Assembly: GCA_017398585.1 (NCBI GenBank)
Contig: JAFQFS010000055.1
Location: forward strand, 1 to 38,701
Length of the DNA stretch: 38,701 nucleotides
Origin: Clostridia bacterium
GTDB taxonomy: Bacteria; Bacillota; Clostridia; Oscillospirales; CAG-272
Reading direction: 5' to 3'
Shown here: positions 14,937 through 34,800 of the stretch, piece after piece
Layout of the letters: every line of letters starts with the position of its first letter
How positions within the stretch are numbered: the first letter of the stretch is position 1
Position numbers and translations under genes: made by a program
The notes under the pieces: generated by a model
Databases searched by the model: none
What the model was told of the DNA's origin: nothing
What the model saw: only the letters and a program-made list of their open reading frames with translations

Positions 14937-15848
14937 TCAGACGTCCATCCCTCCGCGCAGGATGATCTGCCGGATCACGTTCCGCAGGTCGTCCACATTG
15001 TGCAGAGCGGAGCGGTCGTCGGTAAGATCGCCGATGATGTGCGCGCCGAACCGGTGCAGGCAGAACCCGTATGTGAGCTGTTCCGCCACGGTCTCCGCGT
15101 CCCATTCGCCGAAAAATCCGTTGAGATACGGCGCTTCCAGACGGAACAGTCCCGGAAACAGCGACGCGTATTCGTATTCCACGGGAGCGGTCACGGAATC
15201 CGCGAAATCGAGGATCCAGATTGCACCGTCGTCTCCGAGAATGGCGTTGTCGGCATGGATGTCACCGTGGACGTACACGGGTGTACCGTGGGGATGGTTC
15301 CGGATGTAATCCGCACGTGACTGCCGGAAATCCGCCGGGAAGCCGTCCCATTCGTCGTCGTCGATCGCATCCTCAATGAAATCGTAATCGTTGAACCGTT
15401 CGCACGGAACGTTCATTCTGTCACAGATCCCCCGGAGCTGTTTTCCGACGTTCACCTTTTCGTCGGCGGACAGCTCTGTTTTTCCGAATTCCGTCCCGTG
15501 AACGAACGTCTGGATGAGGTAGCGGAACTCGTACCGGTCATAAACCCGTCCGTGCGCGACGAGGTCGGGAACGGAAATGCCGAGACGGTTCGCGCGGCGC
15601 ATCGCCGCGATCTCCGTGAGAAAATCGCTCTCGCACGGCCAGCCGAAACAGTCGGGCGCGTAAACCTTGACGAGGTACTTCCCCGCGCGGAAAACGGCAT
15701 GGGAACCGGGCGTGGTGTTCGCAATCTCCGTCTGCGGAAGTCCGTGCCGGCCAAGGATATGACGCACGAGCGGCTCGAACGCTTCGATGTTCTGAAACAC
15801 CGCCGCCCAGCCGTCCAGGTCAACAATCGTATGGTCAAAGAGGTACAT
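14937..15848 (-). CDS. Aminoglycoside-phosphotransferase-like kinase (APH fold)
   Basis: The 303-residue protein has the APH/choline-kinase catalytic loop VYVHGDIHADNAIL and the metal-binding ILDFADS. An N-terminal lobe lysine (KYLVKVYAP) probably contacts ATP. Such proteins phosphorylate aminoglycosides, macrolides, choline, homoserine or sugars; the substrate cannot be assigned. ATG 15848 is chosen because GGAGG lies six bases upstream; a longer reading to 15884 lacks such a site. It converges with the GH116 gene without any intervening base. The divergent attenuated operon starts about 125 bases upstream. Confidence 0.8.
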   Translation of the reverse strand: MYLFDHTIVDLDGWAAVFQNIEAFEPLVRHILGRHGLPQTEIANTTPGSHAVFRAGKYLVKVYAPDCFGWPCESDFLTEIAAMRRANRLGISVPDLVAHGRVYDRYEFRYLIQTFVHGTEFGKTELSADEKVNVGKQLRGICDRMNVPCERFNDYDFIEDAIDDDEWDGFPADFRQSRADYIRNHPHGTPVYVHGDIHADNAILGDDGAIWILDFADSVTAPVEYEYASLFPGLFRLEAPYLNGFFGEWDAETVAEQLTYGFCLHRFGAHIIGDLTDDRSALHNVDDLRNVIRQIILRGGMDV

Positions 15849-15974
15849 AAAAATCCTCCGGTATTGTTCGTGATTTTTCCCCATTCTATCACATTTCGGC
15901 CGATTTTACAACACAGCTCCGCAAAAGTTTGTATTTTTTGTGAACTATTGAAGTCGCATTTTTGAATTATCCGG

Positions 15975-16003
15975 TTGACAAACGTCCGGAAGAGTGGTAT
16001 AAT
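15975..16003 (+). promoter_or_regulatory. Consensus sigma-A promoter of the attenuated operon
   Basis: TTGACA (15975-15980), a 17-bp spacer and TATAAT (15998-16003). Both hexamers are perfect consensus, so initiation should be strong and control must come later, which fits the attenuator downstream. Confidence 0.92.
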
Positions 16004-16044
16004 ACGGTCAAATTTTTCAAAATCAACGAAAGGAACCCGTCACG

Positions 16045-16167
16045 ATGGATAAGAACCTGCATATCTGCATGAATGTCAAAGTGAATATGAATGTGATCTC
16101 CTATCCCGCATGGAACGCCGATTATACCGCGTTTCAGCCGTCCGGGTTTTCCTTTTTATACCCATAA
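16045..16167 (+). CDS. 40-residue leader peptide of the methyltransferase/GNAT operon
   Basis: ATG 16045 opens a 40-codon frame beginning MDKNLHICMNVKVNMNVISY and ending QPSGFSFLYP, stop TAA at 16165. AAAGGA lies about ten bases upstream. It follows a consensus promoter by about 40 bases and is followed by a terminator and then the methyltransferase gene, the classic order of a leader peptide. The first half is rich in Met, Asn and Val; the second half is rich in aromatic residues. The last nine codons overlap the RNA segment that can pair with the terminator stem. I infer that ribosome position on this frame controls read-through. It is not similar to any stable protein I know. Confidence 0.75.
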   Translation: MDKNLHICMNVKVNMNVISYPAWNADYTAFQPSGFSFLYP

Positions 16168-16255
16168 TTATACAATACCCTCATAATTCTGGAAGTATAA
16201 AATTCATAAACCCGACGGTGTACCGATAAATTTTTATCCGGACACCGTCTTTTTA
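16138..16255 (+). promoter_or_regulatory. Transcription attenuator with competing antiterminator and terminator
   Basis: The terminator is GACGGTGT-a-CCG (16214-16225) pairing with CGG-ACACCGTC (16239-16249), followed by TTTTTAT. The antiterminator is CCGTCcGGGTTT (16138-16149), inside the leader peptide frame, pairing with AAACCCGACGG (16208-16218): eleven pairs and one bulge. The two structures share 16214-16218, so only one can form. A ribosome moving freely to the leader stop covers 16138-16149 and lets the terminator form. A ribosome stalled earlier leaves it free and favours read-through. The structures are seen in the sequence; the direction of control is inferred. Confidence 0.75.
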
Positions 16256-16290
16256 TATTCATTTTCAAAATTCACAGGAGGTACATTACC

Positions 16291-17085
16291 ATGAACACCG
16301 CATTCGACTTTCTCAACAGCTACTACAGCGCACGCGACGAACACGAACGTTTTGCATCCCGCCACGGTTCCGTCGAATTCCTCACGACCGTCCGCTATAT
16401 CGGACGGTATCTCGAACCCGGCATGAAGATCCTCGAGATCGGCGCGGCCAGCGGACGCTATTCGCATTACTTCGCCCGTCAGGGATACAAAGTCGACGCC
16501 GTCGAACTGATCCCGCACAACATTGAGCTGTTCCGTGCGAACACCGGGGACGGCGAAAACGTCCGCATTTTCGAAGGAAACGCGACCGATCTGACCATGT
16601 TTGCGGACAACACGTACGACATCGTTCTCCTGCTCGGTCCAATGTACCACCTGTTCACGGACGAAGACTGTGCCAAAGCCCTCTCCGAAGCCGTCCGCGT
16701 CACGAAAAAGGGCGGCATCCTGATGGCGGCGTACTGCATGAACGACGCGACGGTCATCCAGTACCTCTTCGGACGGCACAAGGTCTTTGACGAAAGTCTG
16801 CAGGGGCTTGTCGACCGGGAGACATTCAAACTCGCATCCACACCGGAGCAGCTGTTCGTCCTCTGGAGACAGGAAGACATCCGACGCTTCACGGACGGAC
16901 TTCCCGCCGAACGCCTGCATTTTGTCGGTACGGACATGTACACGAAGTATTTTGAGGACATGGTCGACTCCCTCGACGACGCGGAATTCGAACAGTACCT
17001 GAATTACCACTTCGCCGTCTGCGAACGTGCGGATATGGTGGGGATCTCACATCACACACTGGATATTTTACGGAAGGAAGGATAA
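16291..17085 (+). CDS. Class I SAM-dependent methyltransferase A
   Basis: The 264-residue protein has the Rossmann-fold SAM motifs: motif I KILEIGAASGRYSHYFA near 48-64, an acidic residue after the second strand (VDAVELIP), and motif IV-like YDIVLLLGPMYHLFTDED near 110. It resembles protein B (17572-18396) in the N-terminal FLNSYYSARDEHER segment, the LLLGPMYHL box and the C-terminal layout, so the two look like paralogues. GGAGG lies nine bases before the ATG. The gene lies directly behind the attenuator and is followed after four bases by a GNAT gene. The methyl acceptor is unknown; an antibiotic, a ribosomal component or a small toxic molecule are possibilities. Confidence 0.88.
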   Translation: MNTAFDFLNSYYSARDEHERFASRHGSVEFLTTVRYIGRYLEPGMKILEIGAASGRYSHYFARQGYKVDAVELIPHNIELFRANTGDGENVRIFEGNATDLTMFADNTYDIVLLLGPMYHLFTDEDCAKALSEAVRVTKKGGILMAAYCMNDATVIQYLFGRHKVFDESLQGLVDRETFKLASTPEQLFVLWRQEDIRRFTDGLPAERLHFVGTDMYTKYFEDMVDSLDDAEFEQYLNYHFAVCERADMVGISHHTLDILRKEG

Positions 17086-17089
17086 CCTC

Positions 17090-17575
17090 ATGACAATCAC
17101 GACAAGACGCGCGGTCATGGACGACCGCATCCGGATCATACCGATTCAGAAGGAGATCGCGGACCTGCACCACAACGGACGCCCCGATCTGTTCCGCACG
17201 GAAGCACATTACTACAGCGAAAACGACTTTTTCGCAAGGCTGACCAATCCCGATCACCGCATTTTCATCGCGGAAGCGGACGGAGAGGTCGCAGGATATG
17301 TCTTTGCCATGGTCAGGCACATCCTGAATCATCCGTCGTACGTGGATTTTGACACGTTCTACATCGATGATATCTGCGTTGCCGAACGGCACCGCCGTCA
17401 CGGCATCGCGACCGCCCTGTTTGAACGATGTATCACGCAGGCACGCGAAGCGGGGTGCAGGAACATCGAGCTTGGCGTGTACTGCTTCAACGGGAATGCC
17501 ATTGCGTTTTACGGGGCAATGGGGATGCGGCCGGTCATGCAGCGAATGGAACTGAGACTGGAGGAAACATTATGA
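17090..17575 (+). CDS. GNAT-family N-acetyltransferase
   Basis: The 161-residue protein shows the acetyl-CoA-binding signature VAERHRRHGIATALFERCIT (Q/R-x-x-G-x-G/A type), preceded by FYIDDICV and followed by NIELGVYCFNGNAIAFYGAMG, a typical GNAT C-terminal half. It transfers an acetyl group to an amine; the acceptor is unknown. AAGGAAGGAT lies six bases before ATG 17090. The stop overlaps the start of the next gene as ATGA, so translation is coupled. Confidence 0.9.
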   Translation: MTITTRRAVMDDRIRIIPIQKEIADLHHNGRPDLFRTEAHYYSENDFFARLTNPDHRIFIAEADGEVAGYVFAMVRHILNHPSYVDFDTFYIDDICVAERHRRHGIATALFERCITQAREAGCRNIELGVYCFNGNAIAFYGAMGMRPVMQRMELRLEETL

Positions 17576-18396
17576 ACGACCGTGACATCATCCGTCAGTT
17601 TTATGACAGCGGAACGGAGCATGAGTGGCAACGGATCGAAAACCGTCCGGAATTTCTGCTGACCTGCCGCTTCCTCGACCGGTATATCCAAAAAGGCGAC
17701 ACCGTCCTCGACATCGGCGGCGGTCCGGGACGGTATTCCGTCCGTCTGGCAGAGTGCGGATGCCGCGTGACTCTGCTCGACCTCTCGGACGAAAATGTCC
17801 GTGCTGCAAAACTCCATGCGGAAGAAGCGGGGGTAGAAATCGAAGCCGTACCGGGGGACGCCTGTGAAGCGGACAAAATTCTTGCAGGACGGCAGTTCGA
17901 CCATGTTCTGCTGATGGGACCGCTGTATCATCTGCTGACGGAGGACGAACGCACGGCGGCGGTGAACGCCGCGCTTGCCCTGCTGAAACCGGGTGGTATC
18001 CTGTTCGCGTCATTCATCGGCATGATGGGCGGGATCATTTTTGAAATGCTGCATCCGGAGATGATTCTCTCGCAGGAACTGCCGGATATTGAATTCCGCC
18101 GATGCTTCCGCGAAGGAAAAAGCTATTCCGGCGACGCGTTCACCCGCGCATACTTCTCACAGATTATCGACACGGAGGAATTCATGAACCGGTTCGGGCT
18201 GGAAAAACTCCACTTTTTCGGCCAGGAAGGAATTCTGTCCCCCTGTGAAGAAAAAATCATGGCCTGCTCTCCCGCTGTCATCGAAGCATGGCTCGACCGC
18301 TCGGAACATCTCTGTGAAAAACCGGAATATCTTACGTGGTCGGAACATCTGATGTACGTTGGGAGAAAAACGAAAACGGAGGAACCGTCATGCTGA
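17572..18396 (+). CDS. Class I SAM-dependent methyltransferase B (paralogue of A)
   Basis: The 274-residue protein has SAM motif I VLDIGGGPGRYSVRLAECG, the acidic CRVTLLDLSDEN and DHVLLMGPLYHLLTEDERTA. The opening (IIRQFYDSGTEHEWQRIENR) parallels methyltransferase A. It starts at ATG 17572 inside the stop of the preceding GNAT gene (4-bp overlap). Its own stop overlaps the next start by 7 bp, so three genes are translationally coupled. Two related but divergent enzymes in one operon suggest either two acceptor sites or two steps of one modification. The substrate is unknown. Confidence 0.88.
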   Translation: MNDRDIIRQFYDSGTEHEWQRIENRPEFLLTCRFLDRYIQKGDTVLDIGGGPGRYSVRLAECGCRVTLLDLSDENVRAAKLHAEEAGVEIEAVPGDACEADKILAGRQFDHVLLMGPLYHLLTEDERTAAVNAALALLKPGGILFASFIGMMGGIIFEMLHPEMILSQELPDIEFRRCFREGKSYSGDAFTRAYFSQIIDTEEFMNRFGLEKLHFFGQEGILSPCEEKIMACSPAVIEAWLDRSEHLCEKPEYLTWSEHLMYVGRKTKTEEPSC

Positions 18397-18896
18397 AACT
18401 CGTAAAACTCACCGAAGAATATCGTCCTCAGCTCTGCGGCATGATGGACGAATGGACAGCCTCCGGCGAAAAAATCATCCCGTGGGCGATCCGCAAATGC
18501 GACTGCCACGACTTCCCCGCCTACCTTGACAGCCTGGAAGTCCGGGAATCCGACGGAATCCACGTCCCCGACTCCACCTTTTTCTGCCTCGATACCGACC
18601 GGAACATCTTCGTCGGCGCGGTCAACATCCGGCATTGCCTGAACGAACGCCTTCTCTTTTCCGGCGGTCACATCGGCGACGGCATCCGTCCGGGCGAACG
18701 CGGAAAGGGGTACGGAACAAAAATGATCGCGCTCGCACTCGAAGAATGTGACCGGCTCGGCATCCGCGAAGTACTGATGTGCTGTGACAAAGACAATCCC
18801 TCCTCCGCGCGGACGATCGTCAAAAACGGCGGCGTTCTCGAAAACGAAGTCACGGCCGGCGGTACGGTCATCCAGCGTTACTGGATCAAACGATAA
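18390..18896 (+). CDS. GNAT-family N-acetyltransferase
   Basis: The 168-residue protein has GIRPGERGKGYGTKMIALAL (the R-G-x-G-x-G acetyl-CoA loop) and VLMCCDKDNPSSARTIVKNG. This pattern is widespread in Bacillota acetyltransferases of unknown substrate. The ATG at 18390 has GGAGG six bases upstream and overlaps the methyltransferase B stop. The product is full-length for the family. It is the fourth gene of the attenuated operon. Confidence 0.9.
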   Translation: MLKLVKLTEEYRPQLCGMMDEWTASGEKIIPWAIRKCDCHDFPAYLDSLEVRESDGIHVPDSTFFCLDTDRNIFVGAVNIRHCLNERLLFSGGHIGDGIRPGERGKGYGTKMIALALEECDRLGIREVLMCCDKDNPSSARTIVKNGGVLENEVTAGGTVIQRYWIKR

Positions 18897-18921: not shown

Positions 18922-20058
18922 ATGTTAAACCATAAAGGAACCAAAACCATCGCAACGCCGCGTCTGCTCCTGCGTCCCTTCATCGTGGAGGACGCGCAAG
19001 AGATGTACGAAAACTGTGCGTCCGACCCGCGCGTCACGAAATACCTCACGTGGATGCCCCACGAATCCCCCGAAGCGACCGCCGAACTGCTCGCGCTGTG
19101 GATTCCGAACTACGAAAATCCCGCGTACTACAACTGGGTCATCACCCGTGACGGTCACGCGGTCGGCAACGTCTCGATCGTCCGGCAGTCCGATAAGAGC
19201 GAATACATGGAGTTCGGCTACTGCCTCTCCGCCGCGCACTGGAATCAGGGGATCATGCCCGAAGCTGTATCCGCCGTCCGCGATTTTCTCTTCCGCGAGG
19301 TCGGTGCGCACCGTCTGGTGATCCGCCATGCGTCGAAAAATCCCGGCTCCGGCAAGGTCGCGCGCAAATGCGGCTTCACATGGGAAGGACGTCAGCGGCA
19401 GGAATTCCGCTCCGCGTGGGGCGAATACCTCGACATCGAAGCCTATTCCCTGCTCCGTGACGAGTGGGAGGAAATGCAGAAAACCGGCATTCCGGCAAAG
19501 CTGACCCTTGACACGCCCCGTCTGACACTCCGTCCGGCGGGCATCGGGGACTTCGAAGCCGTTCACGCGTACGCGGGAAGTCCGGAGAACACGAAGTACA
19601 TGTCGTGGGGACCGAACGACGAAAAAATGACCCGTGACTATCTCCTGCACTGCGAGAAAGCGTGGGCGCAGGAAAGAATCACGGATCATGAATTTGTCAT
19701 GGTTCAGAAGGAGACGGGCAGGGTCATCGGCGGATGCGGACTGTTCCTCGACGAGGACGGATTGAGTTGCTTCGCAACTCAGGCAAATCTCGGCTGGATC
19801 CTGCACCGCGATTACTGGAAGCAGGGGTACACGTCGGAAGCGGCACGTGCGATGGTGGACTACGCGTTCGGCACGCTGGGCGTGCATCGGGTTTACGCGA
19901 CGTGTGATGGGGAAAACTACGGTTCGTACCGCGTGATGGAGAAGATCGGAATGCGGCGCGAGGCGGAATTCAAACAGGCGCGGTACTGCCGCGGCGAATG
20001 GCACGACGAGTATATGTACGGGATTCTGAAAGAAGAATGGGAAAAAGCGGATCGTTAA
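18922..20058 (+). CDS. Tandem RimJ/RimL-type GNAT fusion
   Basis: The 378-residue protein contains two complete RimJ/RimL-like acetyltransferase domains. Domain 1 (about 8-190) has IATPRLLLRPF, YCLSAAHWNQGIMPEAVSAV and HRLVIRHASKNPGSGKVARK. Domain 2 (about 198-375) has LDTPRLTLRPA, GWILHRDYWKQGYTSEAARA and HRVYATCDGENYGSYRVMEK. Single domains of this family are about 180 residues, so this is a fusion or duplication. Targets may be protein N-termini or antibiotics. GAAAGGA lies eight bases before the ATG; the gap from the previous gene is 25 bases. It is the last gene before the 36-nt palindrome. Confidence 0.9.
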   Translation: MLNHKGTKTIATPRLLLRPFIVEDAQEMYENCASDPRVTKYLTWMPHESPEATAELLALWIPNYENPAYYNWVITRDGHAVGNVSIVRQSDKSEYMEFGYCLSAAHWNQGIMPEAVSAVRDFLFREVGAHRLVIRHASKNPGSGKVARKCGFTWEGRQRQEFRSAWGEYLDIEAYSLLRDEWEEMQKTGIPAKLTLDTPRLTLRPAGIGDFEAVHAYAGSPENTKYMSWGPNDEKMTRDYLLHCEKAWAQERITDHEFVMVQKETGRVIGGCGLFLDEDGLSCFATQANLGWILHRDYWKQGYTSEAARAMVDYAFGTLGVHRVYATCDGENYGSYRVMEKIGMRREAEFKQARYCRGEWHDEYMYGILKEEWEKADR

Positions 20059-20103: not shown

Positions 20104-21738
20104 TTATGCGTCATAAATACATTCATACACAATCGTGCATGCCGCACCGAGATTTTCCGGAATTTTCAGCCGTCCGGTGTCCATAAGGTGCCACAGCACT
20201 GCCGCGTGCGGGTCGAACGAGGTACGGTAATGCGCCCTCTCGTTTGCACATACATAGTCGGGGATGAACCGGTCGATATACTCCGCGTAGCCGATGAACT
20301 TCGCGTAAACCGCTTCCGTATCCATCATCGCCGCCGCGCGGTCGAGAATTTCGTTCACCTTCGCCATCTCCGCACGGTTGATATACGGGACGTTCAGCCG
20401 GGCATATCCTTCCGTGATCGTGACGTAGCCTTCCTGTGACAGAAGTGCGAACTGTTCTCTTTCAAAATCGTTCCCGCGTTCGCCCCTCCGCTGATGCTCC
20501 GCCGCACAGGACAGCATGGTGATTTTGTCCTGTTTCATATCCCGTCCGTAATAGTCTTTCATACCAAGTATCCTCAGATCATACTGGTACGACCGCACCG
20601 AACCGTCAGAATTACTCGAGCTTTTCAATCCGTAGTAACCGGAATTTTCTATATATTCCCGCATTTCGTCCGTCATATCCGGCGAAGCGTTCAGTTCCTC
20701 CTTCGTGATTCCCGCGCGTACCCAGTGCTTCGACCCGTCCGGACGCATCGGTGCGCCGTGTTCCAGACCGAGTTCCGCGATCATCCGGTCGTCCAGCCGA
20801 CCGATCACCCGCATGAGGAAATACGCGTAAATGTCCCATTTCAGATCGTTTTCCGGCAGGTCACAGCCGACGAAGCCGACACCGGTCAGCTCGTCCCAGA
20901 CCGCGTTCAGCGCGCGGTCGAATTCCTCCGCGACAAACGGCGCGTGCTCCATCCGATACCGCAGATGCGCCAGATCGAACGTGACATCCCGGATAAAGAA
21001 ATTCGTGCGGTACTTTCCGTTTTTCTCCACCATATACTCCATCGAACACAGGTCGGCAAGTTTATCTTCGAGATACACCGCCGCCACGCCGAGGGTGCGT
21101 GAAATGTCTTCCACAGACAGCGGCGTTTTCCGGCAGATGTAGACAATGTTCTGCATCAGCAGGTCGGATTCCAGTGCGGCGTATACTCTGCTGCGCCAGT
21201 AACCGTAGTGACCCACGTTCAGTTTTTTGGGTCGGTAGATTTCGTCCGTCATAGTGATTCTCTCCTTCAGATCGCTGCGGATTTTCGAAAGGTGCCACCG
21301 CACCGTCGACGGCGCAAGACCGAGCCGTTCCCCGATTTCCGCCGCATTCATGCGTTCATAGTAATACAGGATGATGATCTCCCGCCGCACACCCGAGAGG
21401 TACATGACCTCCCGCCGCAGACAGTCGTACGTCTCCCGCTCGCTCACACATTCCTCCGGTGTCCGGTGATCCGTGAAATCCACATAATCCTCCAGCTTCC
21501 CGGACACCGTCACCGCGTCCCACGCCGGTTTGTTTTTCCGCAGAAATTTCGACCACGTATACCGGCAGACGGTGTGAATGAACGCGTCCATGTTCTCCAC
21601 GCCTTCAAAATCGGCGGTGCACAGATTCAGCAGGATCTCCTGCGAAAGGTCGGCGGCATCAGCGGAATTTCCGGTTTTTGAATACGCAAAGCCGTAGATT
21701 TTTTCGGCATAGCAGCGGATCGTTGCGTCGTCCAGCAT
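20104..21738 (-). CDS. ECF-like sigma factor with about 375-residue C-terminal extension
   Basis: The first 165 residues form a sigma-70 unit: region 2 with DAADLSQEILLNLCTADFEG and WSKFLRKNKPAW, and region 4 with NAAEIGERLGLAPSTVRWHL followed by SKIRSDLKERI. Another 375 or so residues follow, without obvious membrane helices. They start with a second DNA-binding-like section (LSVEDISRTLGVAAVYLEDK, then LADLCSMEYMVEKNGKYRTN) that looks like a winged helix, then an alpha-helical part I do not recognise. ECF factors with soluble C-terminal extensions may sense a ligand directly instead of using an anti-sigma factor. ATG 21738 fits AAAGGAT about ten bases upstream better than ATG 21750. Confidence 0.82.
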   Translation of the reverse strand: MLDDATIRCYAEKIYGFAYSKTGNSADAADLSQEILLNLCTADFEGVENMDAFIHTVCRYTWSKFLRKNKPAWDAVTVSGKLEDYVDFTDHRTPEECVSERETYDCLRREVMYLSGVRREIIILYYYERMNAAEIGERLGLAPSTVRWHLSKIRSDLKERITMTDEIYRPKKLNVGHYGYWRSRVYAALESDLLMQNIVYICRKTPLSVEDISRTLGVAAVYLEDKLADLCSMEYMVEKNGKYRTNFFIRDVTFDLAHLRYRMEHAPFVAEEFDRALNAVWDELTGVGFVGCDLPENDLKWDIYAYFLMRVIGRLDDRMIAELGLEHGAPMRPDGSKHWVRAGITKEELNASPDMTDEMREYIENSGYYGLKSSSNSDGSVRSYQYDLRILGMKDYYGRDMKQDKITMLSCAAEHQRRGERGNDFEREQFALLSQEGYVTITEGYARLNVPYINRAEMAKVNEILDRAAAMMDTEAVYAKFIGYAEYIDRFIPDYVCANERAHYRTSFDPHAAVLWHLMDTGRLKIPENLGAACTIVYECIYDA

Positions 21739-21811
21739 GATGTAAGGCATCCTTTCGAATTTATTTTTGCAGCTTCCTGTTATAAGAGTACCGCGGAATC
21801 CGGAAGTGCTG

Positions 21812-34728: not shown

Positions 34729-34800
34729 GGTCCGTTGGTCAAGCGGCTAAGACGACGCCCTCTCACGGCGTAAACAGGAGTTCGATTCTCCTACGGATCA
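34729..34800 (+). tRNA. tRNA-Glu (anticodon CTC)
   Basis: The acceptor stem GGTCCGT (34729-34735) pairs with ACGGATC, with discriminator A at 34800. The anticodon stem ACGCC/GGCGT (34755-34771) encloses loop CTCTCAC, anticodon CTC at 34762-34764, reading GAG. The T loop has TTCGATT. CCA is not encoded. It closely follows the tRNA-Glu consensus. It stands alone with its own promoter and terminator. Confidence 0.95.

Follow-up and report, generated by a model that had tools for sequence, protein, structure and literature searches.

The window analysed here is the whole stretch of 38,701 nt read on the forward strand of contig JAFQFS010000055.1 (assembly GCA_017398585.1) of Clostridia bacterium (CAG-272). 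At 15975..16003 (+) lies a sigma-70-type promoter, TTGACA and TATAAT at a spacing of 17 with TG before the -10 element, which matches the consensus at 12/12 positions. On the same strand it is followed by a ribosome-binding site, AAAGGA (16029..16034), and a leader ORF of 40 aa, MDKNLHICMNVKVNMNVISYPAWNADYTAFQPSGFSFLYP (16045..16167), confirming the promoter and the 40-codon frame with a ribosome site of the original prediction. Codon 23 is UGG (16111..16113), which we propose as the regulatory codon; it occurs only once in the leader, without the tandem UGG of a trpL-type attenuator. Within the end of the ORF we find the antiterminator arm 2, CCGTCcGGGTTT (16138..16149), which pairs with 16208-16218, and a 20-nt RNA motif, GGGTTTTCCTTTTTATACCC (16144..16163), the window form of GGGCUUGYAUUGUCRUACCC. 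Arm 3, AAACCCGACGG (16208..16218), is common to the antiterminator and to the intrinsic terminator (16214..16254), and both pairing arms lie where they had been predicted, arm 2 inside the leader end. The terminator consists of a hairpin at 16214-16249 and the U tract TTTTTATATT; it was absent from the output of a simple scanner, though the hairpin folds at -17.9 kcal/mol.

Five genes follow the leader in tight order on the same strand, successive genes overlapping or lying a few to 26 bases apart. They encode MT1, a class I SAM methyltransferase (16291..17085; Pfam Methyltransf_11/25), GNAT acetyltransferase 1 (17090..17575, start set by the ribosome site), MT2, another class I methyltransferase with 27% identity to MT1 (17572..18396), GNAT acetyltransferase 2 (18390..18896) and GNAT acetyltransferase 3 (18922..20058), which has two GNAT domains; the GNATs were assigned by Pfam, the last one in two stretches. 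The structure model of MT1 (pLDDT 92.9) has 2avn and CmoM (4htf, 8joz) as nearest Foldseek neighbours, with TM 0.72/0.74 for 8joz, and natural-product methyltransferases lower in the list at TM of about 0.5-0.6. The model places MT1 confidently in class I, as a generic fold with a broad neighbourhood that points to no one substrate; no NCBIfam family reached its cut-off among the 25 listed of 32 matched families. Matches to PADLOC mad2 were taken to reflect the shared methyltransferase domain. No Trp biosynthesis genes were seen within the leader-headed operons themselves. Elsewhere in the window, an APH-family phosphotransferase gene (14937-15884, -) is divergent from the leader promoter, a sigma-70-like gene of 548 aa that extends far beyond the sigma domains (20104-21750, -) is convergent with the operon, and tRNA-Glu (ctc) at 34729-34800 is the sole tRNA found.

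The region 16120-16262 folds at -39 kcal/mol (z -5.9), and 0/200 shuffles were equally stable. With both arms free, the predicted minimum free energy structure holds a GGGTTT/AAACCC pairing together with the full terminator; since these are compatible, true competition in the window is confined to CCGTC/GACGG. The predicted competition between the stems hence stands as regards the shared bases 16214-16218, but it involves only 5 bp, against about 12-13 bp of arm 2 in 21 relatives (alignment A2, below). An Rfam search of the window leader (15960-16300) up to E 1 gave no match, T-box included, and in six relatives, likewise searched at E 1, it found a T-box elsewhere along with three matches below threshold; a riboswitch or other known RNA family was accordingly rejected for the leader. 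The leader peptide matched no leader family of Pfam or NCBIfam, and searches of plasmids (two peptides) and phages (one peptide) gave no match, hence a known resistance leader was rejected as well. A whole-peptide search of 146 family genomes at E 0.01 returned only the window itself, because the leader peptides diverge.

MT1 homologues were collected from 19/25 genomes of the genus at E 1e-30, along with 15 loci of genome contigs, and at E 1e-75 from 25/391 genomes of the class and 42/196 of the family. A leader frame and terminator precede MT1 in 45/89 distinct upstream regions. When scored automatically for a promoter, a ribosome site, a short frame and a terminator, forty of the 89 pass, L022 having been dropped from 41 automatic positives as its frame resembles ribosomal protein S21 by eye. 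Four were added by eye (L027, L040, L062 and L071; L040 and L062 have no clear promoter), and the leader of L080, farther upstream than the automatic test reached, was found by the RNA model R1 described below (as L102). In an inner MT1 group with a profile score of about 399 or more the leader is present in 42/48 regions, against 3/41 below that score; it is absent within the stretch examined from L007, L022, L031, L061, L070 and L077. The original prediction had named homologues lacking the short frame or one of the stems as evidence against it. In the inner group it withstood this comparison, and the recurrence of short frame, both stems and terminator supports ribosome-controlled attenuation well. 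A tryptophan codon (W) is in frame in 43/45 of the MT1 leaders. The exceptions, L084 (the same place as L120) and L040 (as L179), look like broken leaders, through real decay or assembly error. Upstream of the MT1 homologues of L055 and L095 we observed a different common leader stretch, AAGAGCAUACCUAGAGGAAAyUCGAGCGGUAUGAAGUAACsAAUA, followed by a strong hairpin and a U tract.

In 42 aligned leaders the 20-nt motif or a variant of it forms arm 2, followed by a spacer, often with a hairpin; then come arm 3 (e.g. ACGGUGCAAGUC), a loop, and an arm 4 that carries the U tract. The distance from UGG to the motif is 30 nt in the window against the usual 8-9. The codon phase of the motif varies, falling 31, 17 and 1 times in the three frames among 49 leaders measured (49/59 MT1-led leaders; in the others W was missing or the motif was anchored beyond it). 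In L006, whose MT1 is 81% identical, the tail of the peptide is read in another frame than in the window with both stems and W retained, which argues that the RNA and not the tail peptide is kept there.

Alignment A2 comprises 21/43 leaders; outside its covariation count are the window clade, the L008-L013/L029 and L017-L020 groups, and L024, L026, L027, L032, L067, L076, L079 and L084. In A2 90.5% of the antiterminator cells are paired (slid controls 33-47%) and 92.7% of the terminator cells (slid controls 29-46%). Changes on both sides occur in 10/13 terminator pairs, a count reached by 0/500 shuffles, and in 3 antiterminator pairs, a count reached by 220/500; the paired cells and the score of the antiterminator were above those of the shuffles (0/500 reach). 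The alignment of 5' regions that had been proposed shows both stems to be kept. Pairing in the window clade was seen in the window folds, separately from the A2 count. When arms were swapped between loci, over wide regions, to look for co-evolution, the duplex of the window group's own arms scored -20.5 against a mean of -19.6 with arms of other groups, an equivocal difference; own pairs were most clearly favoured in the L009-L013/L029 and L017-L020 groups, and L024 was worse than its control (-17.4 vs -19.2). The model R1, built from A2 with the window not in training, recovers the window leader at 16131-16255 (E 1.2e-3, 29.7 bits); at the stricter cut-off of 1e-5 the window is not listed. 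At E 0.01 R1 matches 66/196 genomes of the family, many of the weaker matches being probably due to chance; at 1e-5 it matches 60/395 genomes, in a draw overlapping the 196-genome one, and across the class only 3/391.

R1 also matches sites that are not 5' of MT1, which allowed us to compare the codons of leaders of one RNA type before different genes. From 68 R1 loci 63 leaders were tabulated, leaving out L171 and L176 (no frame) and L107, L126 and L165 (an incorrect frame chosen); in the comparison of W with MT1, L107 and L126 are represented through L066 and L062. Among the 63, 39 have W, with MT1 as first gene in 37 (counting L119, which is truncated, and L157, where MT1 comes after a 65-aa frame) and GNATs, without MT1 in first place, behind the other two, L153 and L169. 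Of the 24 without W, MT1 is first in two (L120, L179); one of the 24, a GNAT-methyltransferase fusion (L180), was left out of the counts. The weak matches L135-L140 are not in the table (in L136 and L137 a W stands in the tail, past the control place), and L141-L148 duplicate L106, L111, L113, L116, L118, L119, L121 and L127. Merging rows with common first 60 bases (e.g. L019 with L018), the combined table has 57 leaders with both W and MT1, 2 with W only, 2 with MT1 only and 21 with neither. An in-frame W is hence found in 57/59 MT1-led leaders vs 2/23 leaders of this RNA type that head other genes (Fisher p 3e-15, a value which ignores the relatedness of the leaders), and a recount with W restricted to the control zone gave identical numbers. 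The leader tree is poorly resolved (14/79 inner branches starred); on it W changes at least 15 times and MT1 13, and of three supported independent contrasts of MT1 state W agrees in about two and opposes in none. The clearest close pair is L106 (AYRYRSGL, GNAT first) and L177 (IYWYRSGL, MT1 first).

Two control-zone W occur in only 2/57 MT1-led leaders with W (L032, L158). The position of W ranges over codons 12-27, the flanking residues and the N-terminal part vary widely, and no nascent-chain motif common to the leaders was seen. The N-terminus of the window leader has LHIC, for which a TnaC-like arrest was considered; most other leaders lack LHIC, and such an arrest was rejected. Around UGG a small hairpin has a mean z of -1.21 vs +0.21 for an upstream control stretch (49 leaders each, mononucleotide shuffles).

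To 41/43 leaders (L084 and L027 left out) we applied equilibrium folding, which carries no kinetics, with a masked ribosome assumed to cover the 18 nt 5' of the A-site codon and the 12 nt that start with its first base, and with the transcript ending at the terminator loop. For a ribosome at W the mean antiterminator pairing was 0.61, for one at the stop codon 0.18 and for one at codon 2 0.72, against 0.52 with no ribosome. Pairing was higher at W than at the stop by over 0.1 in 32/41 leaders, with the reverse in 1. In the window the values were 0.61 at W vs 0.01 at the stop. Averaged by codon, pairing was 0.66-0.70 before W, 0.62 at W and then 0.52, 0.33 and 0.22, hence UGG is on average the last codon where a stall is predicted to leave the antiterminator free. 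By equilibrium folding the ribosome position would thus select the stem. Pairing at W was low in L009-L013 and L029 (0.01-0.45; L009 0.01, L010 and L011 0.18), L075 (0.12) and L078 (0.15), and the window profile 5' of W dips to 0.13. As stalls at earlier codons, a ribosome at codon 2 or the lack of a ribosome are also predicted to leave the antiterminator available, the fold by itself does not impose specificity for Trp.

The leaders without W show other codons, in samples that are small and related. All four leaders before another methyltransferase type, MT3, have CAG, at the control place in L116, L127 and L161 and two codons earlier in L113; L131, with a GNAT first, has CAG too. An MT3 search of 196 genomes returned 3 intact genes, all already in the set, and one broken copy with no leader in the stretch. 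In one genus L134 and L173-L175 have CGA, and the gene behind it resembles a RimL-like GNAT (in L174 it matches Pfam GNAT), with argS further downstream in L173-L175, one sequence cluster (TIGR00456, 467.8 bits for L175). The weak matches L136 and L137 of the same genus have KRVSVR/KRVAVR leaders and an argS-like gene downstream (by resemblance). CGG precedes other genes in L106 and L172, and the remaining leaders show Gly, Leu, Cys, Met, Asn or Ile codons in no pattern. Genes preceded by this RNA type encode GNATs, a PNP/AMP-nucleosidase-like enzyme, a peptidase S51 and a 2'-5' RNA ligase superfamily protein. A kinase-like protein (GPHAVGKMTVGQ; L118:331-921, L111, L103, L104) is among the commoner gene clusters in the leader operons; its L118 copy had no Pfam match at 1e-5 and no NCBIfam match at 1e-8. 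By eye, the second gene after MT1 resembles a HIT hydrolase in L156 (137 aa) and asparaginyl-tRNA synthetase in L168 (a 463-aa frame).

A scan of 20 loci found a T-box 3' of MT1 in four related ones that form one group, L017-L020 (Rfam, above gathering: L017 5324-5556, L018 4848-5081, L019 5307-5539, L020 5330-5561). It holds GAAUGGGC, which we read by eye as a Trp (UGG) specifier, and is followed in each locus by a trpB-like frame (TIGR00263, 536 bits in L018 and 525 in L017, the two tested). A trpL-type attenuator controls genes of Trp synthesis or TrpRS; here MT1 comes first, and trpB is only adjacent, with its own T-box.

We propose, with a probability of roughly 0.7, that the leader is a ribosome-mediated transcription attenuator sensing slow decoding of the single UGG codon. 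RNA polymerase would start at the 15975 promoter, with a ribosome following on the 40-codon leader. With ample Trp-tRNA the ribosome would move past codon 23 and be covering arm 2 when arm 3 leaves the polymerase; the terminator (16214-16254) would then form. A ribosome held at UGG by uncharged tRNA-Trp, by TrpRS inhibition or by damage to tRNA-Trp would leave arm 2 free to pair with 16208-16218, giving read-through into MT1-GNAT-MT2-GNAT-GNAT. The anatomy, the two conserved alternative stems, the UGG conservation tied to MT1 and the place of UGG at the permissive limit are computed here; from them we infer charged tRNA-Trp as the signal and the resulting read-through. Enzymes modifying small molecules are then probably turned on by ribosome delay at a Trp codon, through a switch present in many gut Clostridia. 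The Trp-looking T-box beside MT1 in L017-L020 is counted in favour of it. Counted against the attenuator on Trp are the kinship of the leaders, the low pairing at W in several of them, the predicted effect of earlier stalls, the W leaders L153 and L169 with no MT1 first, the antiterminator's low count of changes on both sides, the lack of Trp biosynthesis genes in the operons and, in the window, the 30-nt distance and the 5 bp in competition. The presence of one UGG also counts against it, as the Corynebacterium and Streptomyces trp attenuators have two or three UGG codons (PMC1262725) and few regulatory codons would in theory give low sensitivity (PMC1183508).

The same operon could be read as protecting against an antibiotic that stalls the leader ribosome in the style of erm(K), vmlR, tet(M) or toiL, W being part of the stall motif. 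In favour, the window operon is made up of GNATs and methyltransferases, and the antiterminator is predicted on average to stay free wherever the ribosome stalls as far as W. In E. coli the uORF toiL, which responds to multiple antibiotics, precedes topAI-yjhQ (acetyltransferase)-yjhP (methyltransferase) (PMC12121999). Against it, the residues around W and the N-terminus vary widely, with W anywhere from codon 12 to 27; when this RNA type heads genes other than MT1 its leaders mostly have no W, and MT1 is a generic class I fold that reached no NCBIfam cut-off among the families listed. We regard drug sensing as unlikely. Of the two inputs that the original prediction allowed, starvation for a leader residue is favoured, namely Trp. 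The response of erm(K)/tet(M)/vmlR type finds no specific support: the residues beside Trp vary, the tail changes frame, and no leader family and no plasmid (two peptides) or phage (one peptide) match was found.

That W is tied specifically to MT1 would also agree with a feedback in which MT1 acts on Trp decoding, e.g. by methylating tRNA-Trp or a decoding factor, such that low MT1 slows UGG and raises MT1, and CmoM, a tRNA methyltransferase solved with tRNA, is among its nearest folds (8joz). The breadth of that fold neighbourhood, natural-product methyltransferases included, and the lack of a listed NCBIfam assignment at cut-off speak against it, and UGG decoding is not known to need a CmoM-type mark; we find this feedback quite improbable. 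Very improbable, in our view, is that UGG is a mere slow pacing codon which synchronises ribosome and RNA polymerase with no signal read: the small hairpin around it resembles pause hairpins, yet the same RNA chassis stands before other genes without UGG in 21/23 cases.

Extending the attenuator on Trp to the other leaders, we tentatively speculate, at odds well below even, on a cassette, within one family of gut Clostridia, in which one RNA chassis has a control codon swapped to match its enzymes (Trp with MT1, Gln with a second methyltransferase type, Arg with GNAT and argS), and in which the enzymes disarm toxins that each block a single aminoacyl-tRNA synthetase, such as microcin C-like aminoacyl-nucleotides. 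HIT hydrolases confer microcin C resistance (PMC7157772), and acetylation is given as another possible route (PMC3817062). The gene set behind the leaders hints at a possible defence against aminoacyl-nucleotide toxins. If the sensed codon does change with the enzyme, the leader codon would reveal which aminoacyl-tRNA is depleted by the stress that the enzyme answers, and dozens of anonymous GNAT and methyltransferase operons would become testable cases.

Attenuators that sense amino acids are familiar from genes of biosynthesis and of tRNA synthetases, and trpL is a ribosome-mediated attenuator with UGG codons in its leader. UGG-codon attenuators have been described for the trp operons of Corynebacterium and Streptomyces and for trpS2 of S. 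avermitilis (PMC1262725). The present leader is like the trp type in its frame, here predicted to be translated, its UGG 5' of the antiterminator arm, and its mutually exclusive antiterminator and intrinsic terminator. It differs in having one UGG as a rule instead of two or three, in having MT1 first with no Trp synthesis or TrpRS gene, and in lacking an Rfam match. T-box riboswitches similarly sense the charging of one tRNA, and a Trp-looking T-box adjoins MT1 in L017-L020, whereas the window leader has a frame predicted to be translated and no Rfam T-box match. A 2005 statement holds that no Firmicutes synthetase gene is under classical attenuation (PMC1262725); argS behind an Arg-codon leader (L173-L175, L136, L137) is a possible exception.

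The drug-induced leader attenuators erm(K), vmlR and tet(M) share with the window a leader peptide and an antiterminator/terminator switch; unlike them, the present leaders reveal no drug-stall motif, and in the MT1 case the codon identity follows the downstream gene. E. coli toiL is likewise a short upstream frame responding to translation stress before acetyltransferase and methyltransferase genes, but acts on translation start and Rho with no intrinsic terminator (PMC12121999), and YjhP/YjhQ are similar to the proteins compared at the superfamily level at most. Among the matches listed in our literature search, which left subscription journals mostly outside, none dealt with this leader or with Trp-codon attenuation of Clostridia methyltransferase/GNAT operons. 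The same attenuator logic appears to drive modifying enzymes, the sensed codon changing with the enzyme. Compared with the known systems, this is a real attenuator that works by a known mechanism; its target is unusual, and so is the way in which the codon sensed is tied to the effector.
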